The notes under the pieces were generated by a model. It made no database searches. It worked only from the letters and a program-made list of their open reading frames with translations, and was not told the origin of the DNA. A stretch of DNA of 7,449 bases, taken from the NCBI GenBank assembly GCA_025458755.1, contig JALORT010000095.1, positions 1 to 7,449 of the forward strand. The letters run 5' to 3'. Shown here piece by piece: positions 1-7,449 of the stretch. Numbering within the stretch: the first letter of the stretch is position 1; each line of letters opens with the position of its first letter. Origin of the DNA: Methylotetracoccus sp. (GTDB lineage Bacteria; Pseudomonadota; Gammaproteobacteria; Methylococcales; Methylococcaceae). The translations under genes were made by a program, and so were the position numbers.

Positions 1-272
1 GCAACGGCGCCTATTACGCACCCGACCTGACCAAAGCCTGGCTTGATCCGGGCTGGATCAATGCGGCCAACCGCGAAACCCTGATGCTGGCGTTCCTGAA
101 AGACCCCACCGGCAATGCGCGCACTTACGGTTCCGGACGGGTCATGCCCAACCAGGGTTTGACCGACGAGGAAGCCCGCGGCGTCCTCGCTTTCCTGAAA
201 TGGATGTCCGCCATCGACACCAACGGATTTCCACATAACTTCAAGACTCTGAATTCACAGGTGCAGCCATGA
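1..272 (+). CDS. norC: Nitric oxide reductase subunit C (NorC), 3' end only
   Basis: This is the C-terminal 89 residues of the membrane-anchored c-type cytochrome subunit of cytochrome-c-dependent nitric oxide reductase; its 5' end lies outside the window. NorC takes electrons from periplasmic donors and passes them to NorB. The haem-binding CXXCH is not visible. What is visible is the cytochrome c C-terminal half: the segment GSGRVMPNQGLTDEE carries the likely axial methionine of haem c, followed by the final helix (EEARGVLAFLKWMSAIDTNGFP), which is typical of NorC. The reading frame begins at base 3. Its TGA stop overlaps the norB ATG in the sequence ATGA, so the two genes are translationally coupled. 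The identification rests on this segment plus the adjacent unmistakable NorB. Confidence 0.9.
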   Translation, partial: NGAYYAPDLTKAWLDPGWINAANRETLMLAFLKDPTGNARTYGSGRVMPNQGLTDEEARGVLAFLKWMSAIDTNGFPHNFKTLNSQVQP

Positions 273-1750
273 TCTATTCCGTCGCCGCTCTCCCGGGCAG
301 GATTGCTTCCACATTCGACGCTCTCGACAGCCCCCACCTGAACGGCGGGCAACAACTGGCCGTAAAGTATTTCGCCGTCGCAGTCGTCCTGTTCCTGGCG
401 CAGATTCTGTTCGGCATGCTGGCCGGGATACAGTTCGTCGCGCCCAAGTTCTTACACGGTATCATCGACTTCAACGTCAACCGGATGGTCCACATCAACG
501 CGATGGTGGTGTGGCTGCTGTACGGTTTCATCGGCTCGATCTACTGGTTCCTGGAAGAGGAAAGCGGAACCGAGATTGCCGGACTGAAACTCGGCGAGAT
601 CGCATTCTATGTGCTGACCGCAGCGGTCACCTTGGTGGTACTGGTCTACCTGCTAATCCAGACCGGACCCGGCAAAGACACCAGCATCTGGTTCATCAAC
701 GAGGGCCGCGAATACATCGAAGCGCCGCGCTGGGCCGATATCGGCATCGTCGCGGTGATGTTGGTGTTCTTCTACAACGTCGCTGGAACCTTCATGAAAG
801 GCCGCTGGTCCGGCATCGCCGGCGTATTGACGCTGGACCTGGTGGCATTGGCCGGACTGTACTGCGCCGGCATGTTCTACCTGACCAACGTTACCGCCGA
901 CCAATACTGGTGGTGGTGGGTCATCCATCTGTGGGTGGAGGCCACCTGGGAGGTGCTGGTCGGCTGCATCATGGCCTGGTCGCTGATGCACCTGTTGGGC
1001 GCGCGCCGCAAGATCGTGCAGACCTGGCTGTACATCGAGGTGGCGTTGATGTTCGGCTCCGGCATCCTGGGGCTGGGACACCACTACTTCTGGATCGGCA
1101 CGCCGGATTACTGGTTCTCGATCGGCGGCTTCTTCTCTGCACTGGAGCCGATCCCGCTGGTCGCGATGGTGGTGCATTCGGTGTACGACGCGGGTGTGCA
1201 CCAGTTCAAGAGCCGCAATCATCCGGCACTGGCCTGGATCATCGCGCACACCTTCGGCAACTTTCTCGGCGCCGGGGTCTGGGGCTTCATGCACACGCTG
1301 CCGCAGATCAATCTCTATACCCACGGCACGCAGTGGTCGGCTTCGCACGGTCACCTCGCTTTCTTCGGTGCCTATGCCACGATCAATATCGCCTTCTTCT
1401 ACATGGCGGTGCAGAAATGGCGTGGGGACGTCTGGATGGGCGGTGACCTGCCCGATAACGGCTGGAAATGGAAATGGGCGTTGGCCTTGCTGAACGTGGG
1501 CATGCTGGGAATGACCATCGCCTTGCTGATCGCTGGCTACGAGCAGTCGTTCGTCGAACGGGCCGTCGGCGGCTCCACTTGGGAAGGCTACTTCGCCGCG
1601 CAGAATCAGCCGTGGTTCCAGCAGTCCATGCACTGGCGTTTATTGTTCGGCCTGGTGACTGTGGCTGGCGTCGTGCTGCTGGTCTGGGATCTTCTGACCA
1701 TCGGCCGCGGGGAATCCCGCCGGGCGCCGGTGCTGACCGCAGCGGCCTGA
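269..1750 (+). CDS. norB: Nitric oxide reductase subunit B (NorB, cNOR type)
   Basis: Catalytic subunit (493 residues) of the haem-copper-oxidase-superfamily enzyme that reduces two NO to N2O in the cytoplasmic membrane. About 12 hydrophobic segments are visible (roughly 33-55, 77-95, 111-131, 158-176, 184-205, 213-240, 250-270, 283-305, 320-340, 360-380, 402-424, 455-476). By alignment with the known family pattern, H75 and H362 are the low-spin haem b ligands and H360 the haem b3 ligand. H220, H271 and H272 are the non-haem FeB ligands, E224 (in HLWVEATWE) is the FeB-associated glutamate, and E293 (in ALEPIP) is the second conserved glutamate. It lacks the N-terminal quinol-oxidase extension of qNOR, and norC precedes it, so it is cNOR. 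The ATG overlaps the norC stop, with a weak CAGG upstream. The length is slightly above the family's usual ~450-475. The norQ/norD accessory genes often found downstream are absent here: the next gene is convergent. Confidence 0.97.
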   Translation: MIYSVAALPGRIASTFDALDSPHLNGGQQLAVKYFAVAVVLFLAQILFGMLAGIQFVAPKFLHGIIDFNVNRMVHINAMVVWLLYGFIGSIYWFLEEESGTEIAGLKLGEIAFYVLTAAVTLVVLVYLLIQTGPGKDTSIWFINEGREYIEAPRWADIGIVAVMLVFFYNVAGTFMKGRWSGIAGVLTLDLVALAGLYCAGMFYLTNVTADQYWWWWVIHLWVEATWEVLVGCIMAWSLMHLLGARRKIVQTWLYIEVALMFGSGILGLGHHYFWIGTPDYWFSIGGFFSALEPIPLVAMVVHSVYDAGVHQFKSRNHPALAWIIAHTFGNFLGAGVWGFMHTLPQINLYTHGTQWSASHGHLAFFGAYATINIAFFYMAVQKWRGDVWMGGDLPDNGWKWKWALALLNVGMLGMTIALLIAGYEQSFVERAVGGSTWEGYFAAQNQPWFQQSMHWRLLFGLVTVAGVVLLVWDLLTIGRGESRRAPVLTAAA

Positions 1751-1801
1751 CGCAGCCCTCTGCAGCAAATCCCCCGCCGGCTCTATGCCACTAACGGTGG
1801 C
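1751..1801. other. Convergent gap between norB and the hydratase gene, with a small hairpin
   Basis: Only 32 bases separate the two stop codons. A perfect 5-bp stem, GCCAC/GTGGC with loop TAACG, lies at 1787-1801 within the last codons of the - strand gene. There is no T-run on either side, so it is at best a weak or factor-assisted terminator shared by the two converging transcripts. Confidence 0.2.
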
Positions 1802-3183
1802 TGCCGTCGCATGGCGTGCGCATGTAGCATCGCCGTGGCGGCGGACGCCCGGCGGGTCCGGACACTGTCGGCCCGCGAAGTCAGGACGATGGGCACGCGA
1901 GCGCCGAGCACGATCCCAGCCGCCTCGGCGTTGGCCAGGAAAATGAGCTGTTTCGCGAGGATGTTGCCGGCCTCCAAGTCCGGGGCGATCAGTACGTCGG
2001 CTACACCGGCCACCCGAGATTCGATCTTCTTGATGCGCGCCGCTTCGGGGTTGATCGCATTGTCCAGCGCCAGCGGTCCATCCAGGATGCCGCCCTGGAT
2101 CTGGCCGCGGTCCGCCATCTTGCACAGCGCTGCGGCATCAAGCGTCGACGGGATGCGCGTGCGAACGGTTTCGACCGCCGAAAGAATCGCGATTTTCGGG
2201 AGGTCGACACCGAGCGTCCGGGCGAGATCGATGGCGTTCCGGCAGATGTCGGCCTTGGCTTCCAGATCCGGTGCGATGTTCACCGCGGCATCGCTGATCA
2301 GCAGCAGCTTCGGATAGGTCGGCACGTCCATCACAAAGATGTGGCTGATGCGCCGACCCGTTCGAATGCCAGCCACCTTGTCCAGCACCGCGCTGAGCAG
2401 GGCATCGGTGTGCAGACTGCCTTTCATCAAGATTTCGGCAGCGCCCTCACGGATCAGCCCAACGGCCCGTTCGGCGGCGGCGTCGCTGTGCTCGACACCG
2501 ACGATCGGCACGCCGTCGAGGTCAATGCCGTGTTCTTCCGCAACCGCCCGGATGCGGGCCTCCGGCCCCACCAGGACAGGCAGGATGAAGTTGCTTGCGG
2601 CCGCCTCCATCGCCCCTCGCAGAGAGACCGGGTCCACCGGATGCACGACCACGGTCGGCACCGGATCGAGCGTGGCCACCTGCTCGAACAGCACACTGAA
2701 GCTGTCATGGTGCCGCACCGAGATATCCGCGAGATCCGGCACTTCGATTCGCAGCTTCTCGGTCGGTGCCAGAACGGCCGCTTGGCCCTGCATCACGGTT
2801 TCCAGCCGCTGATTGACGACCTCGCAGTCGAACACCACGACGTTTTCGGCTTGCTTCTCGACGACCCTCACCCGCGCGGTCAAGGTATCACCCAACTCCA
2901 CCTGCCGGTGAAACGTCGCGTCCTGCCTGCGGTAGACCGCACCCGGCCCCGGCAGAACATTGGCGAGCAGACTCGAGATCAGACCGGTGGCCCACAGGCT
3001 GTGACCGACGACGCCTTTGGCACCGCGGGCCTGGGCATACTGCCCATCGACATGGGTCGGATTCAGGTCGCCCGACACCTTGCTGAACAAGGCCACATCA
3101 TCACGCGTCAGGGTCCGTTGGAGCTCAGCCGTCTGTCCGAGTTGGATCTCGTCGAAGGTTCGATTCTCGAGAAATTGACCCAC
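1783..3183 (-). CDS. Bifunctional enoyl-CoA hydratase / phosphate acyltransferase
   Basis: A 466-residue fusion. Residues 1 to about 150 form a MaoC-like hot-dog domain: the segment FSKVSGDLNPTHVDGQYA carries the Asp39/His44 catalytic pair of PhaJ-type (R)-specific enoyl-CoA hydratases. Residues from about 160 to 466 form a phosphate acetyl/butyryltransferase domain, recognisable in GAAEILMKGSLHTDALLSA, FVMDVPTYPKLLLISDAAVN and GGILDGPLALDNAI, which transfers acyl groups between CoA and phosphate. The protein is presumably cytosolic. The frame stays open upstream to 3498, but the start is taken as the GTG at 3183. It has GGAGAG 6 bases upstream, gives the family's standard length of about 466, and the upstream translation is low-complexity and unlike the family. 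In other proteobacteria this gene often sits beside acetate kinase and an enoyl-ACP reductase; neither is present here. It ends 32 bases from the norB stop, converging on it. Confidence 0.9.
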   Translation of the reverse strand: MGQFLENRTFDEIQLGQTAELQRTLTRDDVALFSKVSGDLNPTHVDGQYAQARGAKGVVGHSLWATGLISSLLANVLPGPGAVYRRQDATFHRQVELGDTLTARVRVVEKQAENVVVFDCEVVNQRLETVMQGQAAVLAPTEKLRIEVPDLADISVRHHDSFSVLFEQVATLDPVPTVVVHPVDPVSLRGAMEAAASNFILPVLVGPEARIRAVAEEHGIDLDGVPIVGVEHSDAAAERAVGLIREGAAEILMKGSLHTDALLSAVLDKVAGIRTGRRISHIFVMDVPTYPKLLLISDAAVNIAPDLEAKADICRNAIDLARTLGVDLPKIAILSAVETVRTRIPSTLDAAALCKMADRGQIQGGILDGPLALDNAINPEAARIKKIESRVAGVADVLIAPDLEAGNILAKQLIFLANAEAAGIVLGARVPIVLTSRADSVRTRRASAATAMLHAHAMRRQPPLVA

Positions 3184-3312
3184 GGAAAACTCTCCACATC
3201 GTACCAGAGCCGAGAATCGGTCCGGCACCGAATATGTTGCATCGCACAATTCGGCGCACGCTAACACACCCTTGTCGCACGAACAACGCCCCTTATCAGC
3301 GTTACCGTGAAA

Positions 3313-3329
3313 GCGTCGCAGAGCGACGC
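3313..3329. repeat. Perfect 7-bp hairpin
   Basis: GCGTCGC-AGA-GCGACGC forms a perfect stem with a 3-base loop. It lies about 130 bases upstream of the GTG start of the hydratase gene. No T-run follows on either strand, so it is not a classic terminator. Its role is unknown. Confidence 0.45.
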
Positions 3330-3341
3330 CGTAGTGCGCCC

Positions 3342-3376
3342 TTTCCCGCGCGAGGGGGCCCCCGGGGCGAGGGAAA
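3342..3376. repeat. GC-rich inverted repeat
   Basis: TTTCCC at 3342-3347 is complementary to GGGAAA at 3371-3376. Between them lies the 10-bp palindrome GGGGGCCCCC at 3354-3363. As RNA this could fold strongly on either strand. No coding frame explains it. Confidence 0.35.
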
Positions 3377-3401
3377 CCGCGCAGGCCGAGATCGGCGCTC
3401 A

Positions 3402-3423
3402 TGCGGCATGTTCTTGTGCCGCA
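3402..3423. repeat. TGCGGCA/TGCCGCA inverted repeat, first copy
   Basis: TGCGGCA (3402-3408) and TGCCGCA (3417-3423) form a perfect 7-bp stem with an 8-base loop. The same heptamer pair recurs at 3484-3497 in the opposite order. Confidence 0.4.
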
Positions 3424-3459
3424 CGCTTCAAGGCAGCCGTGCCGCGCAAATCGTCTGTG

Positions 3460-3472
3460 TGACAATTTGTCA
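3460..3472. promoter_or_regulatory. 13-bp palindrome, possible operator
   Basis: TGACAA-T-TTGTCA is a perfect dyad in AT-richer sequence than its surroundings. It has the size and symmetry of a dimeric repressor site (TetR/MarR style). It lies 277 bases upstream of the hydratase start and about 355 upstream of the antitoxin gene, so no target can be assigned. It is not an FNR/DNR box, which would read TTGAT-N4-ATCAA. Confidence 0.25.
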
Positions 3473-3483
3473 GCGTCTGAGGG

Positions 3484-3497
3484 TGCCGCTTGCGGCA
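3484..3497. repeat. TGCCGC/GCGGCA inverted repeat, second copy
   Basis: TGCCGC-TT-GCGGCA is a perfect 6-bp stem with a 2-base loop. It reuses the motif of the hairpin at 3402-3423, so the pair behaves like a small palindromic repeat family or paired protein-binding sites. Confidence 0.4.
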
Positions 3498-3661
3498 TCT
3501 ACGGTGAGGTGGATTCGAAGCGCAGCGACCATCCGCCGAATTCCCCGCGCCGTGAACGATGCCGCCGCACGGCCGAATCGGCCCAATCACCGCGCATTGC
3601 TGCACGAATCCGCGTTACGCACTTCTGTCAGACATCGCCGCAGCCGAACAATCGATCGGTT

Positions 3662-3724
3662 GGAGGTAACAGGATTACGCAACTCCTAAACCACCGGACG
3701 TGCGGTCTTCCGCGCATCCGGCGG
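3662..3724 (-). mobile_element. Group II intron 3'-end remnant (domain V plus domain VI-like hairpin)
   Basis: Read on the - strand, bases 3724 to 3691 are exactly 34 nt and fold as a domain V. A 9-bp basal helix (CCGCCGGAT with GTCCGGTGG) contains the family's G·U wobble at the third pair. A 2-nt AC bulge lies on the 3' side, then a GCG/CGC inner helix and an 8-nt apex. The catalytic triad position reads CGC, as in group IIC introns, rather than AGC. The apex (CGGAAGAC) does not form the usual GNRA-capped stem, suggesting decay. After a 4-base linker, 3686-3662 folds into a second hairpin (GGAG/CTCC outer stem, GTAA/TTAC inner stem), placed as domain VI would be, though I see no clear bulged branch-point A. 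No reverse transcriptase or 5' intron domains are visible, so this is a truncated relic. The alternative is a chance hairpin. Confidence 0.45.
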
Positions 3725-3786
3725 TTGGACCTGGCGGCTTGCACGGCCGCAAGATCGGACGGGACGTGAAGACCCCAGCGGCGCAG

Positions 3787-3806
3787 GTATATCATGGTAT
3801 ATCACG
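3787..3806 (+). promoter_or_regulatory. Tandem 10-bp direct repeat upstream of the mazE-like gene
   Basis: GTATATCATG is followed immediately by GTATATCACG (9 of 10 identical). This AT-rich tandem repeat ends 20 bases before the ATG at 3827, where the -10 box and autoregulatory operator of a toxin-antitoxin operon are expected. MazE-type antitoxins commonly bind such TATA-rich repeats in their own promoter. No good -35 box is visible. Confidence 0.45.
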
Positions 3807-3826
3807 CTACCCTTGACGAGGTCATC

Positions 3827-4117
3827 ATGAGTGCACATCAGAGCCGATTGAATGCGAATCGGCGCTACCGGGAGAAGATGCGCGCCATGGGACTTCGGCC
3901 CATCCAGATTTGGGTTCGGGACGTTCGGCAGTCTGGATTCGCGGAAGAATGTCGCCGTCAGTCGTTGTTACTGCGCGGCGATACTCATCACGATTCCTTG
4001 ACGTTTCGTGCGGCCCACGGGAGCCATCCTCAGTCGTCGGAGGAACGTCAGCCGGGCGATGCGGCGCCGCCACAGGGTATGCCGGCACATAACCCCTTCA
4101 GCACCATGTCGGTGTAA
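3827..4117 (+). CDS. MazE-family (DUF3018) antitoxin, C-terminus lost or scrambled
   Basis: The N-terminal part matches DUF3018/MazE antitoxins closely: REKMRAMGLRPIQIWVRDVR then GFAEECRRQSLLL is the family's DNA-binding half. The start is taken at the ATG at 3827, which has GAGG five bases upstream and is followed by the usual MSA; the ATG at 3794 lies inside the tandem operator repeat and is less likely. Homology appears to stop near codon 52 of this start (around base 3983). After that the frame continues with an unfamiliar sequence (THHDSLTFRAAHGSH...) that, from 4048 on, simply reads antisense through the convergent CBS gene. The normal acidic C-terminal tail, which binds and neutralises MazF, is not found in any frame, and no mazF follows. 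It is therefore probably a broken orphan antitoxin that could still bind DNA. Confidence 0.65.
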   Translation: MSAHQSRLNANRRYREKMRAMGLRPIQIWVRDVRQSGFAEECRRQSLLLRGDTHHDSLTFRAAHGSHPQSSEERQPGDAAPPQGMPAHNPFSTMSV

Positions 4118-4482
4118 CTGATGATGCCGATGACTCGGCCCTGGGAGATCACCGGCGCCCGCGACAGTCCGAATTTCTGGAACAGCCGGGCGCAATAGCG
4201 GATGTCCATTAACGGGTCCACGGCGATCACCGGTTTGGACATGATCTCGTAGACGTTGACTCTCTCCGGCGCGCGGTCCTTGGCGAGCACCTCGCACGCG
4301 ATGTCGGAAATCAGCACGATTCCATACTCGTCGTCATCGTGCCGCTTGTTGACGATCAGGCATTTGGTTTCAATGTGCTTCATCATCCGCAGCGCCTCAG
4401 CCACGGTGGTCAATCCATCCACCATGTCCACCGCGGTTTTCATGACCTCGCGCACGCGAATGATTTCATGAGTTGGGATCAT
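4048..4482 (-). CDS. CBS-domain-pair protein (putative adenine-nucleotide sensor)
   Basis: 144 residues consisting almost entirely of two CBS motifs (a Bateman module): CBS1 about 8-70 (VREVMKTAVDM ... GIVLISDI) and CBS2 about 76-131 (VYEIMSKPVIAVDP ... GRVIGIISYTDMVLKG). There is no attached catalytic or membrane domain, so it presumably acts by binding a partner. CBS pairs typically bind AMP, ATP, SAM or similar ligands. It is the last gene of the operon. Its ATG overlaps the stop of the PII-like gene (ATGA), implying coupled translation and a shared job with PII and the DUF1538 membrane proteins. The last ~13 residues (CAGIPCGGAASPG) are outside the CBS fold and lie next to the scrambled antitoxin end, so the C-terminus may have been altered by that rearrangement. 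Confidence 0.85.
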   Translation of the reverse strand: MIPTHEIIRVREVMKTAVDMVDGLTTVAEALRMMKHIETKCLIVNKRHDDDEYGIVLISDIACEVLAKDRAPERVNVYEIMSKPVIAVDPLMDIRYCARLFQKFGLSRAPVISQGRVIGIISYTDMVLKGLCAGIPCGGAASPG

Positions 4483-4829
4483 AACTCGTCCTCGACCAGC
4501 TTGGTCAGCGTGGGGATTTGGTGGCTGACGCCGATGGCGTCTTCCACATCGACCTGAAAGGCGATGCCGGTCCCCGGCGTGTCGTCGAATTCGCCGGCTT
4601 TGGCGATCGATTCCAATATCCGCCGGCTGAGATGTTCCTCGACCAACAGCAGCAGCACGTCCCGGCGCATTTCCAGACTGAGGCCGAAGAAAGTGGTCGG
4701 CGGCTTGAGACCTTCGCCGCGCGCCTGGTTGAGCAGCGTGGCCCCGGTGGCGCCCGCCGCCCGCGCGGCATCGAGCACGGCGTCGGTCTTGTCTTCATCA
4801 ACCGTGGCCACGATCAGTTTGAAGTGCAT
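4479..4829 (-). CDS. PII-like signal protein, short form
   Basis: 116 residues with the PII/GlnB-like ferredoxin fold pattern. The first strand is MHFKLIVATV, followed by a helix. The loop GATGATLLNQARGEG corresponds to the region before the T-loop, and the end segment GTGIAFQVDVEDAIGVSHQ resembles the PII B/C-loop stretch. The T-loop region (about 36-58) is unlike GlnB/GlnK and has no uridylylation tyrosine, so it is a PII-like paralogue rather than a canonical nitrogen regulator. PII-like proteins are trimers that bind nucleotides and often plug or regulate a membrane transporter encoded next door; here the neighbours are two DUF1538 membrane proteins. The start is taken at the ATG at 4829, with GAGGG 8 bases upstream. 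A TTG at 4844 would put that Shine-Dalgarno inside the gene. It begins 24 bases after the second DUF1538 gene. Confidence 0.8.
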   Translation of the reverse strand: MHFKLIVATVDEDKTDAVLDAARAAGATGATLLNQARGEGLKPPTTFFGLSLEMRRDVLLLLVEEHLSRRILESIAKAGEFDDTPGTGIAFQVDVEDAIGVSHQIPTLTKLVEDEL

Positions 4830-4853
4830 CGAATTAACCCTCAATGATCCAAG

Positions 4854-5636
4854 TTATTCTGCCTCGTTCGCCCGCCGGCGCCGGTGCCACTCGCCCAGTT
4901 GGGCATAGCCCATCACCGTGATGATCGGACACAGACTGGCGAAGGCGATCAAGCCGAAACCATCCAACAAAGGGCTGCGTCCCGGAATCGTGCTGGCCAA
5001 GCCGAGGCCGAGCGCGGCCACCAACGGCACCGTCACCGTGGACGTGGTCACGCCGCCGGAATCGTAGGCCAGCGGTACGATAGCCCGCGGAGTAAACGCT
5101 GTTTGAATCAGCACCAGCACATAGCCAGCCATGATGTACAGGTGCAGCGGCGTCCCGGTGACGATGCGCAAGGTGCCGACACCGATGCCGATCGCGACAC
5201 CGATCGCCACGGCGATGCGTAGACCCCACACCGTGATGGTGCCTCCGGACACCGCCGACGCCTTCATCGCCACAGCGATCAGTGCCGGTTCGGCGATGGT
5301 GGTCGCGAAGCCAATCGCCGCGCCAAAGATATAGACCCATAGATAGTCCGTCCAGTGCGGTACCCCAGGCGCGACGGCGCCCCTGTAAAGGAAGGCGGGA
5401 TCGGTGAGTTGGGCCGCCATCAAGCGGCCGAGCGGGAACAAAGCCGCTTCCAGCCCTTCGAGAAACAACGCCAGCCCCAGCAACACGTAGACGAAGCCCA
5501 GCACGGTACGGCCGAGGTGCGGGATCGGCCGCCGCAGAATCCAGAACTGAAAACCAAACAGAGCCAGCGCGATCGGCAGCACATCGCGGAGGGTTTCCAA
5601 CAGGGTACGGGCGAAGTCGAAGAGTATGTCACCCAT
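4854..5636 (-). CDS. DUF1538 integral membrane protein, second copy
   Basis: 260 residues, strongly hydrophobic, with about six to seven membrane segments. It carries the hallmarks shared with its neighbour: RRPIPHLGR near residue 35, [15 protein letters not shown] (109-123), [16 protein letters not shown] (190-205) and [11 protein letters not shown] (225-235). The paired re-entrant-looking loops (AEPALIA, and DSGG followed by a Thr/Ser-rich stretch) resemble ion- or solute-binding elements of secondary transporters, but the family's substrate is not known to me. It has an extra ~15 residues (about 78-95) relative to the first copy and a basic tail ([10 protein letters not shown]), presumably cytoplasmic. 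Its ATG overlaps the stop of the upstream copy by 8 bases (ATGGGTGA), so the two are likely made in equal amounts and may form a heteromer. Confidence 0.85.
5044..5069. repeat. 26-bp identical stretch shared by the two DUF1538 genes, copy A
   Basis: Identical to 5789-5814. It encodes the conserved AYDSGGVTT loop in both paralogues, and the flanking bases are also nearly identical. It reflects tandem gene duplication with strong constraint or gene conversion on this loop. Confidence 0.8.
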
Positions 5637-6363
5637 GGACGAGCATTCCGTAACCCATTACAAAAATCATCGGCGTCAGCGAGGCGAAGGCGATCAGTCC
5701 GAAGCCGTCGATCATCGGATTGCGGCCGCGAATGGTTTGCGCCAACCCCACGCCGAGCGCGGTCAGCAGCGGCACGGTCACCGTCGAGGTGGTCACGCCG
5801 CCGGAATCGTAGGCGATGCCGATGATCGGCGGCGGGGCGAAGGCGGTCATGATCACCACGCCGACGTAGCCGGCGATGATGAACCATTGGATTGGCCAGC
5901 CCTTCAGGATGCGGAACACACCGATGACCACGGCCAGGCCGACCGAAAGGGCGACGGTCAGGCGCAGACCCAGCGCGTAGGATTGGCGGGCTTCCTGGGT
6001 GGACGGAATCGCGTTGCCCCCCGCCGCGATTTCCGCTGCCTGGTCGGCGATGGCGATCAAGGCCGGTTCGGCCACGGTCGTACCGAAGCCCAGCGCGAAG
6101 CTGAACACGATCAGCCACGGGATGCTGCCCTTGCGGGCCAGACCGTAGGCCAGCGCTTCGCCGATAGGGAACAGCGCCATTTCCAGACCGCGAATGAACA
6201 GGGTCAGACCCAGGACGACCATCAGTCCGCCAAGCGCGATCTGCTCCAGATGGGGGATGGGTTGGCGCAGGACCAGTCCCTGAAATATCCCGATGACGAT
6301 CACGATCGGCAACAGGTCCCGCACACTGTCGCGCACCGAGCGATAAAGTTCATGAACGAGCAT
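5629..6363 (-). CDS. DUF1538 integral membrane protein, first copy
   Basis: First gene of the operon, 244 residues, a paralogue of the following gene along its whole length. Shared signatures are [10 protein letters not shown] (32-41), [15 protein letters not shown] (92-106), [16 protein letters not shown] (184-199) and [11 protein letters not shown] (219-229). About six to seven hydrophobic segments are visible. The ATG at 6363 is preferred over an in-frame GTG at 6396. It aligns with the start of the paralogue, and a TATAAT box at 6402-6407 would put the transcript start at about the GTG itself. No strong Shine-Dalgarno precedes either start. Function is unknown; the membrane topology plus PII and CBS partners suggest a regulated transporter or channel. 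Confidence 0.85.
5789..5814. repeat. 26-bp identical stretch shared by the two DUF1538 genes, copy B
   Basis: Partner of 5044-5069, in the same orientation, 745 bases away, encoding the same DSGG loop. A recombination between the two would fuse the genes into a single chimera. Confidence 0.8.
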
Positions 6364-6401
6364 GGGTAGGTAGGAGTCGCGCCGGCTAGAGGTCACCCGG
6401 A

Positions 6402-6407
6402 ATTATA
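6402..6407 (-). promoter_or_regulatory. Consensus -10 box (TATAAT) for the DUF1538-PII-CBS operon
   Basis: A perfect TATAAT on the - strand, rare in this GC-rich window, lies 38 bases upstream of the first DUF1538 ATG. The -35 region 17-18 bases further upstream is poor (TTCCCG/TCCCGG), which suggests an activator or alternative regulation. Confidence 0.5.
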
Positions 6408-6418
6408 GGGGCCGCACC

Positions 6419-6436
6419 GCGCATCCGGGAATGCGC
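6419..6436. promoter_or_regulatory. Inverted repeat over the -35 region, possible operator
   Basis: GCGCAT-N6-ATGCGC is a perfect 6-bp dyad located 12 to 29 bases upstream of the TATAAT box, covering where the -35 element should be. Its position fits a regulator-binding site controlling the four-gene operon. Confidence 0.35.
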
Positions 6437-6858
6437 CCCGGGATCGTCGGGTCGATGGCCTTCAACCGTCAGGTTTCTCGCTTCGTTGCCACTCGAGCTA
6501 CGGGGTTCTGACCTTTCTCGCAACGGGCTACTCTCCCGACGCCCCAGGCGCCTTATGCCGGAGGCATCTGTCCCGGCAGTCGGCTTTCCAGCTCATCGAA
6601 ACGCGGAAGCCGGACTAGCCCAAAAACTGAGCATTGGCGAGATACTGGCTACCGCGAAGGGAGTGGTGCATCAATAAAGTCAGTGCTTGGTCGCTGGGTG
6701 GCTGCCACCCGCGACGGCGACTGGTTGACCAGAGTCACCGTAGCCCGATGCCCCAAGGGCTTAGCAAACGATTTCCAAGCGAACAGCTTTTGGTAGCCGG
6801 CCAGCTCGACAACCCACCATCGCCGGTGGGAATGGCCATGAAGTTGCTACAGGAAATG
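6437..6858. other. Gene-poor, hairpin-rich region, about 420 bases
   Basis: No frame gives a recognisable protein. It holds a series of perfect stems. ATGCC-GGA-GGCAT lies at 6555-6567. TCGC-T-GGGTGGC-T-GCCACCC-GCGA (11 bp with one bulge) lies at 6691-6714. CTGGT-TG-ACCAG lies at 6721-6732 and CCCACC-N6-GGTGGG at 6813-6830. This density suggests RNA structure or remnants of a mobile element. A - strand frame open between stops from 6846 to 6649 reads in part like protein (WVVELAGYQKLFAWKSF) but has no start codon or family match that I know. Confidence 0.4.
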
Positions 6859-6861
6859 TGG

Positions 6862-6881
6862 ATACGCGCCTACGCCGGGAT
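6862..6881. repeat. Degenerate dRS3-like 20-bp palindrome
   Basis: The 20-mer ATACGC-GCCTACGC-CGGGAT resembles the dispersed proteobacterial repeat ATTCCC-N8-GGGAAT (4 of 6 matches in each arm), with the usual TGG before it and TGAG after it. Such elements occur in many copies in some beta- and gammaproteobacteria. Only one copy is seen here, and it is imperfect. Confidence 0.25.
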
Positions 6882-7070
6882 GAGGTCATCTGTCAGGAAA
6901 TCGCTAGCGTCCCGCAGGCCGTAGACCGGAATTCGGCTGTTGCTTCTGCGCGCCGCTTCAGCAACAGCTCGGCCTACATTTTCCCGGATGCGCTTGAACG
7001 GGGCGCGCCCGAACGATGCCGCAGTCGATCCGTGCCTCGGCGGTTGAGCTTCACTGATCCTACCGCGGCG
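6870..7070 (-). pseudogene. Possible frameshifted continuation of the TGT-like gene
   Basis: Directly past the stop at 7060-7062, the frame shifted by one base is open to a TAG at 6870-6872. It translates to a plausible helical segment (FKRIRENVGRAVAEAARRSN then SRIPVYGLRDASDFLTDDL). It has no start codon of its own. A one-base slip in the GC-run CGCCGCGG near 7065 would join it to the upstream gene. The family match of this tail is not established, so it could equally be non-coding. Confidence 0.25.
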
Positions 7071-7449
7071 TCAGGTTTCGGACGTGCCACGAGTTCTTGT
7101 CAAACCTGCGAGGCGATTCCGAAGATATCGTGATGTCCACGAAGCGGTCGCCCATTGGCGCGACCACCATCCCGTAAGCGGCGCGGATGAGGTAGGCGGT
7201 GGAGTCAACGGAATACCACGGATATCGAAACAGTAGAGACCATGCCGTGACACCGAATCCATGATACTTCGCGCGCGGTCTTCCTTCGTCATCGGTCAAG
7301 ACCCTGTTGAACACGTCGTCCAAACGTTCAAGCAGCCAGGAGTTCGTCTCGGGCACCATGCCGCCTATGAAGATGTAGTCGTGGCCTTCCTCGAGGTAAC
7401 GCTCGAGCCAATGCTCAGGCTCGCGAACGTGCCAAACGGGCTTGAGCTT
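7060..7449 (-). CDS. TGT-like (phage-type tRNA-guanine transglycosylase-like) protein, C-terminal part
   Basis: The last 129 residues of a protein whose start lies beyond the right edge. Readable blocks are PVWHVREPEHWLERYLEEG, YIFIGGMVPET, KYHGFGVTAWSLLFRYPWYS and VDSTAYLIRAAYGMVVAP. From memory this HVGE/GGMV/HGFG/PWYSVDST pattern belongs to a TGT-barrel-like family common in phages and mobile elements and related to DpdA-type 7-deazaguanine DNA-modification enzymes. I cannot tell whether this member acts on tRNA, DNA or neither. The family usually continues beyond the NSW motif (120-121 here), so the stop at 7060 probably truncates it; see the shifted frame at 6870-7070. No partner genes (preQ0 synthesis, Dpd helicases) are visible. 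Confidence 0.5.
   Translation of the reverse strand, partial: KLKPVWHVREPEHWLERYLEEGHDYIFIGGMVPETNSWLLERLDDVFNRVLTDDEGRPRAKYHGFGVTAWSLLFRYPWYSVDSTAYLIRAAYGMVVAPMGDRFVDITISSESPRRFDKNSWHVRNLTPR

Follow-up and report, generated by a model that had tools for sequence, protein, structure and literature searches.

A PII-family gene as the regular neighbour of UmpAB-type DUF1538 membrane pairs, seen from a four-gene locus of Methylotetracoccus

PII proteins are very widespread signalling proteins. The transporters described as their targets, in the part of a review available to us, are uptake systems for ammonium, nitrate, urea and bicarbonate (PMC10710835), and a non-canonical type, PII-NG, is associated with CzcABC-type pumps in the accessible portion of another report (PMC7726332, which cites Sant'Anna 2009). 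DUF1538 membrane proteins are known from UmpAB of Halomonas zhaodongensis, a heterodimer that carries out Na+(Li+,K+)/H+ antiport with a pH optimum of 9 and that was active in Escherichia coli from a clone described, in the sections at hand, without a PII gene (PMC5484666). As far as extracts of the respective papers go, UmpAB homologues have been named as possible salt adaptations in two studies of cable bacteria (PMC10030654, PMC12093952), and DUF1538 is listed among the genes picked for growth pH by machine learning (PMC13255231). Here we analyse a stretch of 7,449 nucleotides from Methylotetracoccus sp. (contig JALORT010000095.1, positions 1 to 7,449; hereafter the window), in which two DUF1538 genes are followed by a PII gene and a CBS gene. 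The quartet is probably a relative of the UmpAB-type Na+(Li+,K+)/H+ antiporter accompanied by PII and CBS proteins as likely dedicated cytosolic regulators. Antiport by DUF1538 proteins and PII-gated transport are already known; the new part is the pairing of DUF1538 with PII, its breadth and a separate PII clade, on which no report was found in the literature searched.

The four-gene locus and its membrane pair

The genes of the quartet, and one short element upstream of them, are arranged as follows.

5629..6396, minus strand: UmpA-like DUF1538 membrane subunit (PF07556, 229.1 bits; NCBIfam UmpA, 357.4 bits)
4854..5636, minus strand: UmpB-like DUF1538 membrane subunit (PF07556, 221.9 bits; NCBIfam UmpB, 336.1 bits)
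4479..4829, minus strand: PII-family protein assigned to the UmpAB-linked clade (PF00543, 37.1 bits; tree)
4048..4482, minus strand: stand-alone CBS-pair protein (PF00571, 64.9 bits in two stretches)
6402..6407, minus strand: TATAAT hexamer, a possible -10 box without a -35 partner (from the sequence)

All four gene products pass the Pfam gathering scores (22.6 for PF07556, 25 for PF00543 and 24 for PF00571). The two DUF1538 genes overlap by 8 bases (5629-5636), a gap of 24 bases (4830-4853) separates the UmpB-like gene from the PII gene, and the PII and CBS genes share an ATGA overlap (4479-4482). Open reading frames and Pfam matches thus bear out an earlier note on this DNA, which had placed four genes within 4048..6440 and described these same three junctions exactly. 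Its promoter, a TATAAT box with a dyad over the -35 region, fared less well: the hexamer exists, yet a sigma-70 scan of 3600-6900 returned zero promoter-like sites (mean of 1.0 in shuffled sequences), and the dyad (6419-6424/6431-6436) has arms of 6 bases and shares a stretch of 125 bases with three other listed inverted pairs. The GTG at 6396, at which the UmpA-like frame was started, is itself doubtful, and the ATG at 6363 (residue 12) appears the likelier start because in most relatives the match to that frame sets in at about residue 12 to 24.

The best NCBIfam models of the first and second DUF1538 proteins are UmpA (357.4 bits against a cut-off of 490) and UmpB (336.1 bits against 500), respectively, so that the pair does not reach the curated equivalog cut-offs of the UmpAB antiporter (NF041627/NF041628). 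It does share with UmpAB the trait of paired, overlapping paralogous genes. Structure prediction gave confident models for the window's UmpB (predicted local distance difference test, pLDDT, 93.6; predicted template modelling score, pTM, 0.85) and for a fused UmpAB protein, P0124 (pLDDT 89.2, pTM 0.87). In the predicted models helices are broken at the AEP motif and shortly past the DSGG motif, and residues E116, D192 and D225 of UmpB are invariant in 84/84 aligned rows. On these grounds a secondary transporter seems a better description of the DUF1538 pair than a channel. The earlier note had proposed a transporter or channel of undescribed substrate; a channel is less likely than an antiporter because a DUF1538 pair, UmpAB, has been shown to be one, and for the same reason the substrate can no longer be called undescribed (PMC5484666, from the sections at hand).

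A constant PII gene and an optional CBS gene

Eighty named loci were gathered by similarity to the window's UmpB and are hence biased to its near kin. They hold 83 UmpB genes, 79 of them with room behind, and PII is the next gene in 76/79; in the remaining three (L054, L058, L059) a second DUF1538 gene precedes PII. In a less biased sample of 299 genomes of the phylum, with the PII type counted at E <= 1e-8, DUF1538 was found in 116 genomes and the PII type in 118, both being present in 111 and neither in 176, which leaves five genomes with DUF1538 only and seven with the PII type only (Fisher's p 3e-66, a rough guide as the genomes are related). PII lies directly downstream on the same strand at 83 of the 87 DUF1538 loci among the best-scoring places listed, the exceptions being in G084, G093, G116 and G121. 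Eight genomes carry DUF1538 among the window's own genome and 15 relatives, and all eight have an adjoining P-II match, the one in G928 being partial and under the cut-off.

The pairing was also followed around two of the named loci. Around L042 (titled Desulfopila) DUF1538 occurs in 6/118 genomes with PII behind it in 6/6, truncated in G372 where the contig stops. The genomes around L075 (titled Acidobacteria) have DUF1538 matches in 7/149 cases and PII in 5/5 examined, including G532, where the locus is split across two contigs; the two weakest matches, in G476 (23.5 bits) and G546 (under the cut-off), lie outside these five. Plasmids of Methylocystis rosea and Paraclostridium bifermentans, the two records opened of three that matched, carry DUF1538 with a gene annotated as a P-II family regulator behind it, and the pairing is thus also present on a Clostridia plasmid. 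Where one genome contains two DUF1538 types, each has its own PII type (L125/L126, L152). The earlier note had suggested surveying DUF1538 neighbourhoods for conserved PII and CBS partners; in that survey both genes proved conserved beside DUF1538 elsewhere, and the pairing recurs in several phyla. The layout of the quartet, recurring across species and phyla, is more than chance.

The CBS gene behaves differently. It follows PII in 70 of the 74 named loci with room for it, and it is present in only 13 of 27 UmpB-PII pairs from 40 further regions, hand-picked to spread across families and to take in solo PII genes. These 40 regions contain 31 UmpB matches, the four without PII behind them being those of L117 (its second pair), L133, L135 and L140 (a fragment). 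A divergent DUF1538 type, whose PII scores 52-69 bits, lacks CBS in 9/9 cases. Of 369 genomes sampled from the class, 96 had a UmpB-like match at E <= 1e-90; the quartet is complete in each of the ten best loci, among them the locus nearest NCBI's UmpB model (469.9 of 500 bits), and 13 UmpAB regions opened from the class sample and nearby lists, two of which repeat best-ten loci, have PII in 13/13 and CBS in 12/13. PII is therefore the constant partner, and CBS an extra that only some members of the family have. The earlier note's picture of two sensors on one membrane unit holds insofar as both genes are conserved there, but the two are unequal, PII being constant and CBS optional.

Several departures from the common arrangement were seen. 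Near the window's organism the cassette is patchy, DUF1538 being found in 2/10 genomes of the family against 6/6 examined from the order's other families (G000, G919-G932, G898). Locus L117 is an odd array, A-B-PII-CBS-PII-A-B; L032 and L052 have two PII genes in tandem; L054 and L059 have three DUF1538 genes; and P0166 is a DUF1538 protein of 759 residues with three repeats by eye.

The UmpAB-linked PII and CBS proteins

Fifty-two PII proteins of this type were aligned and compared with canonical PII, using two PROSITE-like GlnB/GlnK signature patterns and residues R38, K90 and R101, the ATP contacts of canonical PII. The signatures were found in none of the 52 aligned rows nor in any of nine further rows (0/9); both canonical PII proteins of the window's own genome, one of which is encoded beside an amtB-like gene (recognised by eye), carry both. 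In all 52 rows other residues stand at the positions of R38 (L or I), K90 (I) and R101 (G), and the equivalents of G35, G37, G87, G89 and T29 are kept. No Cys or His is invariant in the alignment, the nearest being H66 in 45/52 rows. The match of a PII profile to SbtB chains was no better than E 0.07 and covered residues 5-45.

Among 90 rows in a quick maximum-likelihood tree, 58 UmpAB-linked or solo PII proteins lie on one side of a branch of length 2.15 with a Shimodaira-Hasegawa-like approximate likelihood ratio test (SH-aLRT) value of 99. The tree rests on 121 columns, with long branches and only three non-canonical outside rows, and most of its rows were found with profiles of the UmpAB-linked clade itself. 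From signatures and tree together, the UmpAB-linked PII is a sequence-defined clade separate from GlnB/GlnK. The window's genome also encodes a PII linked to an RND pump, which falls outside the clade in this tree of long branches and three non-canonical outside rows; its gene (L169, 3324-3635) follows a PF00873 RND pump gene (204-3308), a PII-NG-like arrangement. Members of the clade without DUF1538 beside them were seen in L129, L136, L141 (9766-10104), L143, L144, L146, L147 and L148. Several of these solo copies lie near argB-like genes, and those in L143, L144 and L146 near dusB-, ntrB- and ntrC-like genes, all named by eye.

Proteins joining UmpB and PII were sought with a joined sequence, and the best 120 of 7,999 scored matches contained five with both domains. 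Two look clean, P0245 and P0285, the latter reading UmpA-UmpB-PII over 646 residues; P0246 and P0265, in which the end of UmpB is garbled, look like products of frameshifts, and P0247 is questionable. Elsewhere the PII part itself is multiplied: the PII gene of L154 encodes two PII lobes, and in L155 and L156 a fused UmpAB is followed by a chain with three. The outer lobes are weak, scoring 18.9 bits against the Pfam threshold of 25 in L155 and giving no Pfam P-II match in L156, and were recognised with a custom profile. These rare fusions and two- or three-lobe chains hint at a physical partnership between PII and UmpAB. As a separate case of PII fused to a transporter, L221 (2217-4268) encodes a protein of 684 residues that combines a sulfate-permease domain (PF00916) and a weak STAS match with P-II at the C-terminus.

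The CBS protein consists of two CBS domains (PF00571, 64.9 bits in two stretches), and its best solved relative by sequence is the CBS-CP12 protein 5nmu (E 4.9e-25). The pattern G-h-x-[ST]-x-x-[DN], the CBS ribose-phosphate motif, occurs in the second domain in 20/29 rows and in the first in 3/29; the window's protein has it in the second only. The earlier note's two adenylate sensors are unproven: the PII lacks the ATP-contact residues of canonical PII, and the CBS protein has the motif mainly in its second domain.

The rest of the window contains a MazE-like antitoxin-type frame on the plus strand (3794-4117; PF11455, 71.9 bits), opposite the CBS gene and overlapping its 3′ end, a MaoC and phosphate acyltransferase fusion (1783-3498; NCBIfam PRK08190, 679.9 bits), and an oxidase subunit of the COX1 family (269-1750; PF00115).

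A candidate regulated antiporter and its relation to known systems

Regulation of the membrane pair by PII and CBS is the best reading of the locus. According to this model, UmpA and UmpB would assemble into a heterodimer, and the exchange of a monovalent cation against protons would run via the invariant acidic residues near the broken helices. By analogy with GlnK-AmtB and with AMP-bound SbtB-SbtA (PMC10710835, in the part available), PII, as a trimer or in some species as a single chain with two or three lobes, would attach to the cytosolic side and either lock the antiporter or set it free, depending on a small ligand in the inter-subunit cleft. The ligand would most likely be an adenine nucleotide, because the cleft glycines are kept though the ATP-phosphate contacts are lost. 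In loci that have the CBS gene, its product would supply another adenylate input, and the whole would serve to adjust proton-driven cation exchange to the cell's energy state. If the pair is a heterodimer, either three AB units would be arranged round one PII trimer or PII would work with another symmetry, and three unequal lobes in one chain would favour the latter.

Several points weigh against this model. UmpAB is active in E. coli with no PII on the clone described, and activity therefore does not require PII; moreover, the reported form of UmpAB is a heterodimer (PMC5484666), at odds with a review that restricts PII control to transporters able to be trimers (PMC10710835), as far as the consulted parts of both sources go. 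The UmpA and UmpB scores lie under the NCBI cut-offs, and the substrate could therefore differ. PII of this type can serve elsewhere, given the 7/118 PII-positive genomes without DUF1538 and the solo copies of the clade. Three of the five UmpB-PII fusions may be frameshift joins, and the outer lobes of the three-lobe chains fall under the Pfam threshold. For the quartet itself, antiport, the PII ligand and the complex are all predictions.

The loss of R38, K90 and R101 in 52/52 rows also suits a different role, in which PII responds to an ion, to pH or to ionic strength, or serves as a subunit for assembly, and nucleotide input comes via CBS alone where that is present; a PII beside a metal pump has been read as a metal sensor in Geobacter (PMC7726332, in the portion seen). 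An invariant Cys or His, however, is missing from the alignment (H66 in 45/52 rows), and the cleft glycines and T29 equivalents are kept in 52/52, which makes this role doubtful. Somewhat less probable again is a PII-regulated transporter whose substrate in this clade is something other than monovalent cations. Scores below the curated cut-offs are compatible with it, and the literature searched yielded assays of only one DUF1538 pair, but UmpA and UmpB are nonetheless the best models, the genome nearest NCBI's UmpB model (469.9 bits) has the same quartet, and the acidic residues are invariant in UmpB (84/84 rows) and in fused UmpAB. Pfam and other databases label the PII a nitrogen regulator and some solo copies lie near argB- or ntrBC-like genes (by eye), yet an ordinary nitrogen-status regulator, controlling salt transport via 2-oxoglutarate and uridylylation, is improbable: both signatures are absent in 52/52 rows, there is no arginine at the R38 and R101 equivalents, and the genome has two canonical PII proteins, one beside an amtB-like gene. 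That the genes are merely neighbours without functional dependence is the least credible account, for although many counted loci are close relatives and not independent events, the pairing holds across phyla, DUF1538 types and fused forms, and the families co-occur even though DUF1538 is in only 2/10 genomes of the window's family.

Returning to a PII-regulated antiporter, we consider a wider version possible, if tentative, in which gating by PII is general to the DUF1538 antiporter family and a PII branch of its own supplies it with a permanent subunit, with one asymmetric PII unit per heterodimer and CBS bringing a second nucleotide signal in some bacteria. Were one asymmetric PII unit to sit on one heterodimer, the proposed trimer-only rule for PII control would be broken, and some bacteria would read two nucleotide signals on one cation/proton exchanger. 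More generally, if a cation/proton antiporter has a PII clade tied to it, nucleotide or energy signalling would be linked with sodium, potassium and pH homeostasis, and PII control would extend to a new transporter class. The sharp question raised is how a PII trimer fits on a heterodimer. Proteins labelled nitrogen regulators in databases thereby acquire a testable role, and PII, often together with CBS, becomes a candidate to assay with UmpAB.

The locus resembles Halomonas UmpAB in its two overlapping paralogous DUF1538 genes and in its best models, UmpA and UmpB; it differs in scoring under the curated cut-offs and in its PII and CBS genes, which go unmentioned in the available sections of PMC5484666. 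With GlnK-AmtB and SbtB-SbtA it shares a PII-family protein encoded beside a transporter and thought to act on it (PMC10710835, in part). The transporter here, however, is a predicted cation/proton antiporter pair rather than an ammonium channel or bicarbonate symporter, the partner is reported to be a heterodimer and not a trimer, and the canonical signatures are absent. As in PII-NG, a non-canonical PII adjoins an export or antiport system, but the window's PII adjoins DUF1538 and CBS and not an RND/CzcABC-type pump. Finally, its CBS pair is a possible nucleotide-dependent switch of transport like those on MgtE and OpuA (PMC10710835, from the same extract), whereas here it is a stand-alone protein that occurs only in part of the family.

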